Assembly (NCBI GenBank): GCA_030018275.1
Contig: JASEGB010000011.1
Span: 1 to 51,908 of the forward strand
Reading direction: 5' to 3'
Length of the DNA: 51,908 nucleotides
Source: Actinomycetota bacterium
GTDB lineage: Bacteria; Actinomycetota; Aquicultoria; Subteraquimicrobiales; Subteraquimicrobiaceae
Below are positions 202 through 6,401 of the stretch, one piece after another; position 1 is the stretch's first letter, and each line of letters starts with the position of its first letter. The position numbers and the translations under genes were made by a program. The notes below the pieces were generated by a model that was given only the letters and a program-made list of their open reading frames with translations, was not told the origin of the DNA and did no database searches.

Positions 202-2241
202 TTATCTGACGAATAGTGGTGCAAATATCAAGGCCACCACAGTCATGACCTTGATCAAAATATTCATGCAGGGTCCGGCGGTATCTTTAAATGGGTCCCC
301 AACGGTATCTCCGACCACGGATGCCGCGTGGGTTGGTGTCCCTTTCCCGCCGAGATTCCCGGCCTCAATGTATTTCTTGGCATTATCCCAAGCTCCCCCG
401 GCATTGGCCATAAAGATAGCCATCAAGAAACCACAAACCAGCGCCCCAGCCAGATAACCGCCAAGTGCTTGAGGACTCCATAAACCGATGACGATGGGGC
501 TAAACACGGCGATGGAGCCGGGGATGATCATCTCCCTCAATGCGGCGGTGGTTGATATATCGACACACCTGGCATACTGAGGTTTAGCACCCTCCTTGCC
601 CTCTCTCAAACCGGGGATTTCTCTGAATTGCCGTCTTACCTCCTCAATCATCTTGAAGGCTGCCCTTCCCACGGCTTTAATGGCCAATGATGAGAAGAGG
701 AAGGGGAACATTCCTCCAAGAAATAGCCCGATTATAGTATCGGCCCGGGCGATATCGATGGTTGGAAGCTTGCAGACGGCACAAAAGGCTTTAAAGAGAG
801 CCAATGCGGTAACCGCAGCTGAAGCAATGGCAAATCCCTTTGCGATTGCCGCCGTGGTGTTACCCAGTGCGTCCAGACTATCAGTAATCCTCCTTATTCC
901 AGAAGGTCTCTTTGACATCTCGGCGATGCCACCAGCATTATCCGCTATGGGGCCATAGGCATCCACGGAGACTACTATACCCGTGGTGGAGAGCATACCA
1001 ATGGCCGCAAGCGAAATGCCGTAAACTCCTCCACCAACCCCGTTGATTACCACGCCTTTCATCGCCGCCTCTCCGGCTATATACGCGATGAAGATCGCCA
1101 CACAGAGGATGATGATGGAAAAAGCGGTGCTTCCCATCCCCGCAGAAATTCCCGCGAGGATATTTGTTGCGGCACCGGTGAACGAAGACTGCGCGATTTC
1201 CTTGACGGGATTGTATTTATCGGAAGTGTAATATTCGGAGACCTGACCAATGGCCATTCCCGCAGCCAATCCAGCCACAATCGACCAGAAGAAACCCATC
1301 CTACCCGCTCCCAACATGAGATACACCAGTACAGCACAAGCCAGGGTGGTAAAAAGAGCAGCGGAGTAAGTCCCCATACTCAGAGCTCGACTAAGGTGGA
1401 CCTCCTCTCGGGCACGCACAAAAAGAGAGCCGAGAATGGAGCAGATAATGCCCACGGATGCGATGAGGAGAGGCAAAATCATGCCCTTCCAACCAAGGAG
1501 TATGGCACCCAAAACAAGCGGGGCAACGATGGAACCCACATAAGACTCGTACAAATCTGCTCCCATACCCGCCACATCGCCGACATTATCCCCCACATTA
1601 TCGGCGATGACCGCGGGATTTCTGGGATCATCCTCGGGGATACCAGCTTCAACCTTGCCCACCAAATCCGCTCCCACGTCGGCGGCTTTGGTATAAATCC
1701 CCCCACCAACTCGAGCGAAGAGAGCAATTGAACTGGCCCCCAGACCAAAACCGGCGATAATATCCGGGGCATTAGGGAGATTTAGCCAGCATTGGAAGAC
1801 GAGATAACAGATACTCAAGCCGAAAAGGCCAAGACCTGCTACCGTTAAACCCATGACCGCCCCGCCACGAAAGGCCACTCCCAGGGCTTCCGCCACTCCC
1901 TCTTCAGCCGCCCTGGTGGTCCTGGCATTGGCTCGGGTGGCTATGGTTAAACCTATGAAACCGGCCAATCCCGATAGAACGGCTCCGCATAAGTAGGCAA
2001 TCGCCGTTAGTTTGCTGATGAGAAAGAAAATGAGCGTTGCTATGACCACCAAAAAAACGGCTACATATCTATATTCCCTGCTCAGAAAGGCATTTGCACC
2101 TTCTTGGATGGCGCGAGAAATTTCAGCCATTTTTTCGGTCCCAACGGGATGCTCAAGAACGGTATAAGCACAGTAGGCAGCCGTGATAAGCCCACAGACT
2201 GCGCAAAGTGCGGCAATTCCCGCCAAGATAGCCAAAGACAT
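202..2241 (-). CDS. hppA: Membrane-bound pyrophosphatase (K+-dependent type)
   Basis: This is a polytopic ion-pumping pyrophosphatase that couples PPi hydrolysis to H+ or Na+ export across the membrane. The family's catalytic block is clear: [19 protein letters not shown], followed by [12 protein letters not shown] and, near the C-terminus, [12 protein letters not shown] and [10 protein letters not shown]. The GNTTAA motif has Ala where K+-independent enzymes carry Lys, which predicts the K+-requiring subfamily; the pumped ion cannot be read with confidence. The frame is open to 2331, but I chose the ATG at 2241 because GGAGG sits about 7 nt upstream and the protein then begins [12 protein letters not shown], a typical first membrane helix. 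The length of 679 residues is normal. It is transcribed alone. Confidence 0.95.
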
Positions 2242-2432
2242 GAGCTTTCCTCCTTCGCCAAAAAACCCCAGGGAAATAAAGAAAAAGCTCCATTCAAAAA
2301 TAGGAGCAGCGCGGCTAAAAAGCGAAGCCACATTCAGTTTCGAATAAAATATAAATACTTTTGTTCATGCCTGTCAAGACGCCTATTTTTCGTGAAATAA
2401 TGTTTTAAAATAGTAGGTGAAAAGGTTGTTAG

Positions 2433-2662: not shown

Positions 2663-3163
2663 TCAGAGCCGCTGCCTCTGCAATTTTTTCACTTTCAATT
2701 GATTGATCGCAAACAGCCCTCCGCTTATCATCAAAAGGACGAGGGCTATCAAAGCTCTTCTTATATTAAAAGGATGGGCAACAGTGTGTCCCCTCTTTAT
2801 TACATCTACCTTGATGGCATGAATATCCATATCGCCACCATGCTCAGGACATGCCCGATGAAAGATTCCCTCAATGAGAATCGTATCTCCAAGGTACCTG
2901 TACTCTCCCTTGTGCCTTATCTTCCTGGCTAAATCGGCAGAGCACCATATCCCAAGTGCATTTTCGCCGTCGTAAACATTTATCCAGGCATGATTCCCTC
3001 TTATCATCACATCGCCCACAACCTCTCCCCGATAGATGACCTTCTTCCCATCAAATTCCCTTGAGTTCTCAATTAGTTCAGTACTTGAGATAGAAGCGGC
3101 CATTGCCGTGGAGGTTACCAGCAAGAGTATCATGATCGCGCAAAAAGTTGATCGCAGCCTCAC
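2663..3163 (-). CDS. Secreted OB-fold-like protein with C-terminal membrane anchor, function unknown
   Basis: This 166-residue protein has an N-terminal signal peptide (MRLRSTFCAIMILLLVTSTA), a soluble domain of about 100 residues and one C-terminal membrane helix (ALIALVLLMISGGLFAI) followed by a basic tail. The soluble part (ELIENSREFDGKKVIYRGEV, then GNHAWINVYDGENALGIW, then YLGDTILIEGIFHRACPEHG) has the strand order and spacing of small OB-fold nucleic-acid-binding-like domains seen in exported lipoproteins. Its start overlaps the trkH stop by 4 nt, so it is translationally coupled to the K+ transporter. An accessory role for TrkH is only an inference. No enzymatic motif is visible. Confidence 0.7.
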   Translation of the reverse strand: MRLRSTFCAIMILLLVTSTAMAASISSTELIENSREFDGKKVIYRGEVVGDVMIRGNHAWINVYDGENALGIWCSADLARKIRHKGEYRYLGDTILIEGIFHRACPEHGGDMDIHAIKVDVIKRGHTVAHPFNIRRALIALVLLMISGGLFAINQLKVKKLQRQRL

Positions 3164-4659
3164 TTACCTCTCACCACGGAAACTATGAAGCCTATTAAGG
3201 CAAAAACTGAGACGAACTCCATTCTGCCAGCCCACATCTGGAATATGTAGGTTACCTTCATTAGAGCGGGCATGTTTGGGGAAGTTACTCCGCAGGAAAG
3301 TCCAGTATTGCTCCCCGCGGAGACCGCATCAAATAATGCTTGAAAGGGAGGATAGCCGCAATAAATGCCCACTAAGGCACCAAAAATGTATGAAAGGACA
3401 TATAAGAGGGTGATTAAAACCGCTGAACGTATAATTCTCTCATCCAATACTATCTCCTTGATGTGATGAATCCGCTCCACCACCAAAGCGGATTCTGGAA
3501 GGATAACTCTTTTAATGTCTTGAACTAATGCTTTGAATACGATGCCTACCCTCAAACCCTTTATGCCTCCCGCAGTTGAACAGGTGCTTGCGCCAATGGC
3601 CATTGCGAGGCAGGTAGCCAACATGGCCGGTGGACCCCATTGCTCGATGAATTGCCTGCCATAAATGGTTTGATTGCCCGTGGTCGTATGTCCGGAGACC
3701 AAAATATAAAAACCTTTCCTGAAAATTTCAATGGCATCTGAATATATGCCCGTCTTCATCAGACCAGCTGTGACCAAAACGAAGAGGACTATTAGCGTGG
3801 TAGAGAATGAAAGTAGCTCGATGTTCCGATAGATCTCCCTCCGATTGCCCGTCCAAATTGCATAGTGAACGGCGAAATTAAAAGAGCCCATCACGAAGAT
3901 GATCAGAGTCAATATCTCTATAAGCAAGCTATGGTAGTAAAGGAGATTTTGAGACTGTGGTGCAAAACCTCCCGTGCTCCAGGCTCCCATGAACAACCAG
4001 ATGCCATGAAGAAAAGCTCTGGGCATCGGTATCCCTTCGCACATCGCCGCAATCCAAAGAACCAATGAGCCCAGAAAAAGATAGGTCAAACTTATGAACC
4101 AAATGGCTCGAGCGGTGTTAATGACATTGGGTAAGAGTTGTTCCTCCTTAGCCTCTCCCACATACATTTTGACTAAACCTGTGCCCCGGACCAAGAAGGT
4201 CAGAGCGATCACTATAATTCCCTGACCGCCGACGTAAGTGAGTAAGTGTCTCCATGTATTCAAGGCATAAGAGATGTGGTCCAAATCCTGTAGCAAATAT
4301 AAACCAGTAGTTGTACACCCGCTCATGATGTCGAAGCAGGCATCGAGGTAGCTTCCAAAGTGTCCGCTTAGGAAATGGGGTAAAGCTCCCACAACCATAG
4401 CGATTATCCACGAAACCGAGGCCACCACCATTCCATGCATCCAAGACATGATGGCTTCGTGTCGGCAACAAATGACCAATAAATATCCCACGAGAAAACA
4501 AGCGGTCGCCCCCACGATAAAGTCTATGCAAGCGTTCCACTCCCGATACAGCAACCCCACAACCAAGGGAATGAACATCAAAAGCCCAACGGTGATTATA
4601 ACCTTACCAATGTAATAACCAATGATCTTAAAATCGGATTTTCTGGGACGCAGTAGCAT
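3160..4659 (-). CDS. trkH: K+ uptake protein, TrkH/KtrB family
   Basis: This is the membrane-spanning K+ translocation subunit of a Trk/Ktr system, 499 residues with repeated M1-P-M2 units. Selectivity-filter-like segments are visible: SGCTTTGLYLLQDL, STGGFAPQSQ, SGHTTTGNQT and SAGSNTGLSCG. It also has the conserved GASTCSTAGGIKGLRVGI stretch. A clear GGAGG precedes the ATG at 4659. It belongs to a minus-strand operon led by two TrkA proteins and followed by an OB-fold membrane protein. Its N-terminus is strongly similar to the truncated copy immediately upstream (4682-4912), so this is the surviving member of a tandem pair. Confidence 0.93.
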   Translation of the reverse strand: MLLRPRKSDFKIIGYYIGKVIITVGLLMFIPLVVGLLYREWNACIDFIVGATACFLVGYLLVICCRHEAIMSWMHGMVVASVSWIIAMVVGALPHFLSGHFGSYLDACFDIMSGCTTTGLYLLQDLDHISYALNTWRHLLTYVGGQGIIVIALTFLVRGTGLVKMYVGEAKEEQLLPNVINTARAIWFISLTYLFLGSLVLWIAAMCEGIPMPRAFLHGIWLFMGAWSTGGFAPQSQNLLYYHSLLIEILTLIIFVMGSFNFAVHYAIWTGNRREIYRNIELLSFSTTLIVLFVLVTAGLMKTGIYSDAIEIFRKGFYILVSGHTTTGNQTIYGRQFIEQWGPPAMLATCLAMAIGASTCSTAGGIKGLRVGIVFKALVQDIKRVILPESALVVERIHHIKEIVLDERIIRSAVLITLLYVLSYIFGALVGIYCGYPPFQALFDAVSAGSNTGLSCGVTSPNMPALMKVTYIFQMWAGRMEFVSVFALIGFIVSVVRGK

Positions 4660-4681
4660 TTATCCTCCCAATCACTTTCCC

Positions 4682-4912
4682 TTAACCGCGGAGCCAATTC
4701 ATTTCCTTCTCAACTCGGCAAAATATGGATAAAAGATATCCGACTATGAAACAGGATGCTGCACCGATAACGAAGATGACGGCTATATTCCATTCTCGAC
4801 AGAGGAGGGAAACGACGAGGGGAATGAATTTGGCCATGCCCACACCCAGCACCAATCTTCCAGTATAAAAACCAATGATCTTGAAGTCCAAAAGCGTGGG
4901 GCGAAGTAGCAC
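4682..4912 (-). pseudogene. Truncated tandem copy of trkH (N-terminal 76 residues)
   Basis: The product closely matches the first about 75 residues of the intact TrkH next to it: LLRPTLLDFKIIGFYTG here against LLRPRKSDFKIIGYYIG there, then PLVVSLLCREWN against PLVVGLLYREWN. It stops at ...EMNWLRG, exactly where TrkH would enter its first pore unit, and the following bases (CGCGGTTAAGGGAAAG) resemble a frame-shifted TrkH tail (VRGK, stop). The simplest reading is a second trkH gene that lost its middle by internal deletion. The GTG start at 4912 overlaps the stop of the small gene upstream as TAGTG. It might still be translated as a two-helix peptide. Confidence 0.75.
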
Positions 4913-5034
4913 TAGAGACACCTCAAGAAGAGCCAGCCCACGACGTAGGCAATTAACATTATGGTCAGAACGAAGAAGATTTCTATTCCTACGCCCACGA
5001 CGTAACCAAGATAGCGCCTTGTCTTCTCCCTCAT
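4912..5034 (-). CDS. Small membrane protein of the Trk locus (40 residues)
   Basis: An ATG at 5034 opens a 40-codon frame. It has a basic N-terminus (MREKTRRYLGY) and one long hydrophobic helix (GIEIFFVLTIMLIAYVVGWL), and ends at TAG. It sits between trkA and the trkH remnant, all co-directional, and its stop overlaps the next start by 1 nt. The basic-then-hydrophobic layout and the tight coupling argue for a real single-pass protein. A role as a small Trk accessory subunit is inference; I recognise no family. Confidence 0.55.
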   Translation of the reverse strand: MREKTRRYLGYVVGVGIEIFFVLTIMLIAYVVGWLFLRCL

Positions 5035-5051: not shown

Positions 5052-5738
5052 TCAACGTCTACTTGGCTGGGCCTTTCCGAGGAGGGTATTTCTGAAATTT
5101 TCTTCCTTATCCACAGAGGTCAGGGCGATAACACCATCGCCGCTTTGCAGCACAGTGCTACCCCTGGGGATGATTATCTCATCGCCTCTCACGATGGAGA
5201 CGAGGACACAGTCCTTGGGAAATCCGAGTTCAGAGACCTTCTTGCCTGCCACAGGGCTATCTTGGGAAAGATCCAGTTCCACCAGCGCGAGTCTTCCTTT
5301 CTTGAGCGCTTGCAGGGTAATGATATCCCCAATGGTGGCTTCCTCCTCGATGAGCTTGGCGATGACCGTGGTGCTCGATATGGCCTCTATTCCCAAGGTG
5401 AGGAAGATATTTTCGTTCCTGGGATCGTTAACCCTAGCCACAACCCTGGGAACATTGAAGGTCTCCTTGGCGAGCTGACACATAACCAGGTTATCATCGT
5501 CATCCCCGGTGACGGCGGCTAGGACATCCGCCCTGTCCACTCCCGCTTCTTCAAGGTATCTGATATCGCAGGCATCTCCCTTTATCACCAAAACATTGGG
5601 AGATTCTTCAGCAATTCTTTCGCATTTCTCCCGACTTTTCTCAACCATCACCACCGTGTGACCCTTTAAAGATAAAGTCTTCGCTAAAGCCGCTCCGACT
5701 TTGCCCCCACCACCGATGATTATGTACATTTCTCCCAC
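5052..5738 (-). CDS. trkA: TrkA-type K+ channel regulator (RCK protein 1)
   Basis: This cytosolic gating subunit binds NAD(H) or nucleotide and controls TrkH. The 228-residue protein has a Rossmann RCK_N domain with IIIGGGGKVGAALAKTL and acidic VMVEKSREKC, the conserved IKGDACD and AAVTGDDDDNLVMCQLAK segments, and a C-terminal RCK_C domain (LVELDLSQDSPVAGKKVSEL to the end). Each of the two adjacent TrkA genes encodes a single RCK unit, whereas E. coli TrkA carries two units in one chain. This split-pair arrangement is usual in actinobacteria (ceoB/ceoC). The gene lies 6 nt downstream of the second copy. Confidence 0.93.
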   Translation of the reverse strand: MGEMYIIIGGGGKVGAALAKTLSLKGHTVVMVEKSREKCERIAEESPNVLVIKGDACDIRYLEEAGVDRADVLAAVTGDDDDNLVMCQLAKETFNVPRVVARVNDPRNENIFLTLGIEAISSTTVIAKLIEEEATIGDIITLQALKKGRLALVELDLSQDSPVAGKKVSELGFPKDCVLVSIVRGDEIIIPRGSTVLQSGDGVIALTSVDKEENFRNTLLGKAQPSRR

Positions 5739-5744
5739 TTCCTT

Positions 5745-6401
5745 TCAATCGAACTTAAGATCGTAAGATTCCCTGATCTTCTCAAGGGCAGCGGATTTGA
5801 CCACGCCTATAATGGTATCCTCCTCCTCAATTTTACTATCTGGTGTGGGGATTAGAACCCGCTTATCCCTCAAGATGGAAACGAGGCGAAACTCTCCTAA
5901 CAGTTCAATTTCGGAGGCTTTTCGCCCAATGATCGTTTTAGAAGCGGGAAATTCTACGATCTCCGCTCCATCTTCTCCTAGACTGAAATGTGGAACGAAG
6001 TATTGCCCAAGGATTTTATCGTGGATGAATCGAGCTACCATGGTGGTCCCACAAACAGTTTCCAGACCGAGTCTATGATAAGTGTGCTCCCTATCGGGAT
6101 AATAAACCCTGGATACCACTCGAGGAACCTTAAATACATATTTTGCCACCTGACCCGCCATAATATTGGCATTGTCCAGGTCCGTGACCGCAGCAAAGGC
6201 ATCGGCTTTATCTATGCCCGCCCTCTTCAAAGCCTCCTGATCAAAACCATTTCCAACCAAGGTAAGACCATTAAATCCGGAACCCAAACGTTTAAAGGAA
6301 TCGGACCTTCTATCGATCACCACGACGTCGTGGCCCTCATCGGCCAACATCATTGCCAGCTGTGCTCCCACGCGTCCGCAACCCACCACTATCACATACA
6401 T
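5745..6401 (-). CDS. trkA: TrkA-type K+ channel regulator (RCK protein 2)
   Basis: The 218-residue protein is a second RCK subunit and probably the first gene of the K+ uptake operon. It has VIVVGCGRVGAQLAMMLADE as the nucleotide-binding loop, VVVIDRR as the acidic strand end, and a TrkA_C domain near residues 135-215. It is clearly diverged from its neighbour, so the two probably form a hetero-assembly on TrkH. No gene lies in 6402-6574, which should hold the operon promoter. Confidence 0.92.
   Translation of the reverse strand: MYVIVVGCGRVGAQLAMMLADEGHDVVVIDRRSDSFKRLGSGFNGLTLVGNGFDQEALKRAGIDKADAFAAVTDLDNANIMAGQVAKYVFKVPRVVSRVYYPDREHTYHRLGLETVCGTTMVARFIHDKILGQYFVPHFSLGEDGAEIVEFPASKTIIGRKASEIELLGEFRLVSILRDKRVLIPTPDSKIEEEDTIIGVVKSAALEKIRESYDLKFD

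Follow-up and report, generated by a model that had tools for sequence, protein, structure and literature searches.

A trk operon with a collapsed upstream trkH and a conserved small gene that may encode a KdpF-like TrkH subunit

The trk operon of the Actinomycetota bacterium represented by assembly GCA_030018275.1 raises the question of why a truncated trkH should lie in front of an intact one, and what the very small membrane-protein gene ahead of both contributes. Trk is a main bacterial potassium uptake system and is described as TrkH together with TrkA. In the window, by which we mean the whole analysed stretch of 51,908 nucleotides from contig JASEGB010000011.1, the minus strand reads, in order, trkA1, trkA2, a 40-residue single-helix gene, a trkH stump, an intact trkH and a gene for a 166-residue protein. 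The explanation that we favor, with a probability of roughly 0.6, is that the upstream trkH has eroded to a pseudogene beside an intact copy and that the small gene is a conserved one encoding a putative KdpF-like subunit of TrkH. KdpF itself is a protein of one helix that steadies the KdpFABC complex, and its gene precedes kdpA.

We begin with the two trkH sequences. The intact gene (trkH2, positions 3160-4659, minus strand) encodes 499 residues that match the Pfam TrkH model over its full length at 125.3 bits, well over the curated cut-off of 27 (3e-36), and that align over residues 11-487 with solved TrkH (PDB 4j9u and 3pjz, both at about 2e-29, which together with 6v4j we take to be TrkH-TrkA of Vibrio). 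Since the NCBIfam TrkH models fall below their own cut-offs (TIGR00933 with 219 bits versus 331, PRK10750 with 144 versus 866), the intact protein is a divergent member of the TrkH family. Its AlphaFold2 model, with a mean predicted local distance difference test score (pLDDT) of 80.9, places helices at residues 7-27, 29-37 and 41-64 and the next one at 73-98. Throughout the genome (1.49 Mb in 38 contigs) the TrkH model has a single match at E<=0.001, which is this gene. The stump (trkH1, 4682-4912, minus strand) is an open frame of 76 codons, or 79 if an in-frame GTG at 4921 is used, and shares 57% identity with the start of the intact protein; a genome search with the stump protein returned two matches, namely itself and that same N-terminus. 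It retains the first 75 or so residues of trkH, a two-helix N-terminal unit, and closes with a new stop at what the model of the intact protein shows to be the border after the first TrkH helices. Overlapping its end, in another frame, 21 nucleotides at 4692-4672 encode SAVKGK and a stop, a TrkH C-terminus as found in the relative G022 (ISAVKGK and a stop). The score of this tail was reached by 2/500 shuffles of the 60-nucleotide tail, and that of the homologous tail in the sister species G002, VFALLGVIFAAVR, by 0/500. A ribosome-binding-like GGGAGG (4660-4671) follows directly before the ATG of the intact gene. Thus both ends of the parent gene are present with an internal loss and a break of frame between them, the marks of a trkH pseudogene. 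The upstream trkH was destroyed when about 1.26 kb was lost from its interior, or 1,259 nucleotides by arithmetic if the destroyed gene was 1,500 nucleotides long like intact copies. The original prediction of a trkH remnant joined to a shifted trkH-like tail, left by a tandem pair that lost about 1.3 kb, is borne out on each of these points. Note that the surviving trkH is the downstream copy, which has its own GGGAGG, and that the collapsed upstream copy occupies the usual place of trkH directly behind the small gene.

G002 has the same arrangement, but its upstream trkH carries another deletion. There the frame holds 42 native residues at the front, followed by seven unrelated codons and a stop, and the back end is longer than that of the window. 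Because each remnant keeps a part that the other has lost, neither deletion derives from the other, and the trkH1 of their common ancestor retained no less than its first 75 residues together with that longer back end. With deletion ends that differ in this way, the upstream trkH became dispensable and eroded separately in each line. In G001, a member of the same genus, there is no stump and the small gene overlaps trkH directly. A further proposal of the original prediction, that the two-helix stump may still be expressed and could, as a free N-terminal unit, modulate TrkH, fits its 76-codon open frame, its start overlapping the stop of the small gene and its end at a helix border. This proposal has become very improbable, however, given that the G002 frame retains only 42 native residues and that no third free stump occurs among 60 genomes, 30 of which have a match to the stump protein (the matches in G032, G033 and G035 being cut by contig ends). 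The stump as a conserved free domain was likewise rejected, the G002 frame being different and shorter. Window and G002 differ in the remnant by 4 non-silent and 3 silent substitutions across 42 codons; in the first 76 codons of intact trkH the figures are 5 and 4. Such counts are too few to judge. We infer that the stump is a dying pseudogene and not a regulator, and that the intact copy carries the function.

What, then, is the small gene? It runs from an ATG at 5034 to position 4912 on the minus strand, where its TAG overlaps the GTG start of the stump as TAGTG; the 40-residue single-helix frame, this overlap and the operon spacing are all present as first described. Whether sister genomes conserve the small open reading frame (ORF) had been left to comparison, and the comparison gives a clear answer. 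Every one of 25 gaps between trkA2 and trkH (the window, the loci of its class, and L055, L056, L058 and L059) holds an ORF that encodes a single hydrophobic helix in about 40-62 residues and that ends at trkH or at most 88 nucleotides before it, or at the stump in the window and G002. Scanning by nothing more than position and hydropathy identified such a helix ORF at 78 of 100 trkH starts whose TrkH is at least 33% identical to that of the window: 25/28 in the class, 31/48 in the phylum outside the class (where 44 loci were selected from a longer list), 21/23 in Omnitrophota and 1/1 at L055. Three trkH starts of the class were missed: one belongs to the second trkH of G007, and the other two, in the window and G002, have the remnant in between; the window and L034 were scored as misses since the remnant separates their small gene from the intact trkH. 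L079, L084 and L132 are near misses that have a helix ORF in other readings of the locus. Six genome places carry two locus names (L053/L044, L054/L076, L056/L081, L060/L074, L058/L114 and L055/L159), and the first five of these pairs entered the scan once. Unlike window-type loci, those with a low-identity, 'canonical-like' TrkH (<33%; 19 Bacteroidota and 3 Omnitrophota) have no small helix ORF before trkH in 22/22 cases, and none was found at 264 control gene starts (trkA1 88, trkA2 97, downstream gene 79, a gene matched by both TrkA queries being counted twice). The third phylum, that of L055, is represented by nine genomes, five of which have such a TrkH, and 5/5 of these loci have a helix ORF bearing [GS]xxxE. 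A family profile built mostly from class members recognises 18/23 Omnitrophota loci, a training member included, at E<=1e-3; the 25 loci on which it was trained are among the loci scored with it. In the window genome this profile finds one place at E<=10, the window copy that is itself part of the profile, and no second copy.

The encoded proteins also share a motif. Gly-x-x-x-Glu, which is G14 and E18 in the window, occurs in 24/25 helix ORFs of the class (shuffled mean 2.3, highest 8 in 1,000 rounds), in 21/21 of Omnitrophota (mean 1.4, highest 6 in 1,000 rounds) and in 18/31 of the phylum outside the class (mean 4.6, highest 11), where it is found in 16/16 cases with a TrkH at least 46% identical to that of the window. 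A further count, 61 of 63 peptides with the motif, comes from a set preselected by the family profile and carries no weight here. In a midpoint-rooted tree of 122 TrkH proteins the motif protein accompanies 62/68 members of one group and 5/54 outside it. Note that the scan and this tree differ in their limits (hydropathy 2.2 versus 2.05, stop at most 60 versus at most 100 nucleotides before the start, GxxxE versus [GS]xxxE), so that their counts lie a few loci apart. AlphaFold2 models the window protein as a single helix over residues 2-39 with a mean pLDDT of 90.9. No Pfam or NCBIfam model exceeds its cut-off on the window protein or on any of 21 members of the family, the lowest E-values being 0.0048 and 0.0059 with one member each, and among the matches listed from the open-licence PMC literature none describes a small protein whose gene accompanies trkH; the microprotein papers listed there concern human, fly and other microproteins and have no TrkH, and passages of PMC10903887 name neither Trk nor potassium. 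The control starts and the shuffled-motif controls together reject chance as the source of the ORF. The small gene is genuine and conserved, and it is found with one TrkH clade in three phyla.

The gene to which it is linked can also be named. L054 and L060 have their trkA genes downstream of trkH, yet the small gene still precedes trkH there, and in G005 it has been copied together with trkH; this indicates that it goes with trkH and not with trkA. As a separate observation, one or two trkH are accompanied by at least three trkA genes in L054, L056, L059 and L060. In the G005 locus (L037, 2904-6513) small gene and trkH are both present twice, and the second trkH matches in two frames; it is apparently frameshifted and may be a further second copy in decay. 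The stop of the small gene overlaps the trkH start (+4 or +1) in 45 of the 78 scanned cases and abuts it in 9.

From these features a role can be sketched. With its basic N-terminal residues, the product would be a single-pass membrane protein with its N-terminus inside, and the overlap of its stop with the trkH start suggests that it would be made with TrkH by translational coupling. By analogy with KdpF, it may then be a small subunit that binds to TrkH within the membrane and steadies or tunes the channel. A single transmembrane helix, by prediction, and a conserved linkage to one partner, as are expected of small transporter subunits, are both seen here, and we infer that this clade of TrkH has a small subunit of the KdpF kind. 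The same overlaps and abutments would also be expected if the ORF were mainly a translational coupler, delivering ribosomes to the trkH start while its peptide is merely harmless and membrane-bound. That account gains from comparing G002 with the window, whose intact trkH is preceded by its own GGGAGG: the small genes differ by 7 amino-acid-changing and 0 silent substitutions (five hydrophobic swaps, one Leu to Ser and one Arg to Ser, the motif unchanged). Yet a coupler would hardly account for an amino-acid motif kept across three phyla, for pN/pS ratios (non-silent to silent differences) of 0.20-0.68 in 39 other small-gene pairs, which share sequences and so are not independent and have silent sites near saturation in several cases, or for the persistence of the gene where it does not overlap trkH (e.g. 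L055, L113 and L122). A helix would also be unnecessary for coupling. We therefore consider a mere coupler unlikely. Far less probable still is that the ORF was once the first helix of a longer ancestral TrkH and split off from it. Its position on the same strand, adjoining and often overlapping trkH, would suit such an origin, but the TrkH behind the small ORF already has the N-terminal helices of solved TrkH, and a fused form is absent from the loci scanned.

Several observations weigh against a KdpF-like subunit. The lack of any fused form in the loci scanned is one of them, and the ORF may be a leader peptide only. By the criteria of the scan, 17/48 TrkH starts in the phylum outside the class have no helix ORF, and the motif is mostly absent there when TrkH is 33-46% identical to that of the window (present in 2/15). 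The seven changes without a silent one, set beside dN/dS ratios (non-silent to silent divergence) between the window and G002 of 0.05-0.14 for trkA1, trkA2 and trkH and of 0.22 for the downstream gene, mean that purifying selection on the small gene is not visible in this lineage and may have relaxed since the loss of its trkH. As a side observation, the short helix ORFs before trkH that often lack the Glu motif (L098, L107, L111, L112 and other phylum loci with a TrkH of 33-46% identity) suggest an older, more divergent relation.

If the subunit interpretation is right, a conserved small membrane partner would change the subunit list of Trk and give direct access to the tuning of TrkH assembly or gating, and the candidate partner is one for which neither Pfam nor NCBIfam has a model. 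A wider proposal, which we hold to be evenly balanced, is that a TrkH clade in at least three phyla uses an undescribed putative third Trk component, a single helix with Gly-x-x-x-Glu at the start of the membrane helix that would be produced jointly with TrkH and whose gene adjoins or overlaps that of its partner. KdpF-like subunits would then be recurrent in this channel superfamily and not a peculiarity of KdpFABC, and the window peptide would have outlived its coupled trkH to serve the second copy. In this respect the window lineage is a natural experiment, with the coupled trkH gone and the frame and motif of the peptide kept in both species.

We also asked where the two trkH copies came from. 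Both trkA genes encode single-RCK proteins with Pfam TrkA_N and TrkA_C domains, trkA1 (5745-6401, minus strand) of 218 residues and trkA2 (5052-5738, minus strand) of 228. The remnants of the window and G002 group with the TrkH of family f5 (support 97/83, or 93/88 without the G002 remnant), and so does their trkA1 with that of f5 (98/90). Their trkA2 lies outside a 15-row clade that holds the genus-mate G001 (96/99); placing it beside f5 alone is not the best tree, with a p-value of the approximately unbiased test (p-AU) of 0.368, and is not rejected. The intact trkH groups elsewhere, with G010, G287 and G206 (99/94), and forcing it into a clade with f5 is rejected (p-AU 0.0175). A single clade of the window, G002 and G001 is rejected as well, for trkA2 (p-AU 5e-7), trkA1 (1.5e-4) and intact trkH (0.003). 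The operon thus has the look of a mosaic: the remnants and trkA1 group with f5, unlike the intact trkH, and the pair probably consisted of two divergent trkH genes instead of a recent duplicate. It is likely, but not proven, that these homologues were joined by transfer of an operon segment.

The original prediction had read the locus as a collapsed tandem duplication. The pair and its collapse stand, and it is the duplication in place that has become doubtful. A trkH duplicated where it stood, with one copy then collapsing and no operon parts transferred, has precedent in the tandem trkH pairs of G007 and G005 and would agree with several results that weigh against a mosaic origin: a clade of the remnants with their own intact TrkH is not rejected (p-AU 0.338 on 80 columns), nor is one of f5, the remnants and their own TrkH (0.273), and the downstream gene gives no sign of transfer, G001 being its nearest row by path after G002 in a tree that is unresolved. 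In addition, the tested groups were chosen after the trees had been seen, which makes the p-values lenient. Set against duplication in place are the 57% identity of the stump to the neighboring intact TrkH, which is low for such a pair, the f5 affinities of the remnants and trkA1, the rejected clades with G001 for both trkA genes, and a tail, SAVKGK, that matches an f5 member. We accordingly regard it as rather improbable, and a mosaic of two divergent trkH genes as the better description. As for relatives with two full trkH genes, which the original prediction had proposed as a check, G007 has a complete tandem pair, G001 has no stump and G002 has a stump in place of a second full copy. In that G007 locus (L038, 1493-4653) the last bases of the small gene are repeated before the second copy, from which the break of the duplication seems to lie within the 3' end of the small gene.

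In regards to the flanking genes, the 166-residue protein (2663-3163, minus strand) has a start that overlaps the trkH stop as GTGA and no Pfam or NCBIfam family over cut-off. Relatives of it lie directly after trkH in 25/31 loci, and of the six remaining loci four stop at trkH or close to it, making it a second uncharacterised neighbor of this TrkH clade. A 709-codon ORF at 202-2331 (minus strand), which from its sequence we take to be a membrane-bound pyrophosphatase, adjoins the trk operon.

Comparison with known systems places the locus as follows. The stump resembles an ordinary post-duplication pseudogene in having both gene ends, an internal deletion and a different erosion in a sister species, and departs from one in that the two copies seem, without proof, to be of different descent. 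The intact TrkH resembles TrkH-TrkA of Vibrio in the extent of its match and in its adjoining TrkA genes. Solved TrkA has RCK1 and RCK2, and TrkH in the solved complexes is a homodimer with TrkA rings, as a portion of PMC6987127 describes; unlike that TrkA, the one here consists of two separate single-RCK proteins. AcrZ, CydX and others are small membrane proteins acting on a large membrane complex, according to PMC7267776 and PMC6005532. The small protein is like AcrZ and CydX in being a putative small membrane partner of a large membrane complex, and unlike them in having another partner, whose presumed gene it adjoins and often overlaps. KdpF and the small protein differ in that the presumed partner here is TrkH with TrkA, as the neighboring trkA and trkH genes indicate, instead of KdpA with KdpB, in that the protein here has the Gly-x-x-x-Glu motif, and in that no KdpF model is among the Pfam and NCBIfam matches at E<=1 for the 21 members. 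PMC12629597 and PMC6255902 assign KdpA to the superfamily of TrkH and place TrkAH in the same superfamily as KdpA, respectively. Like KdpF of KdpFABC, the small protein of the window would be a short protein whose partner, made with it, is potassium channel-like and of the TrkH superfamily.

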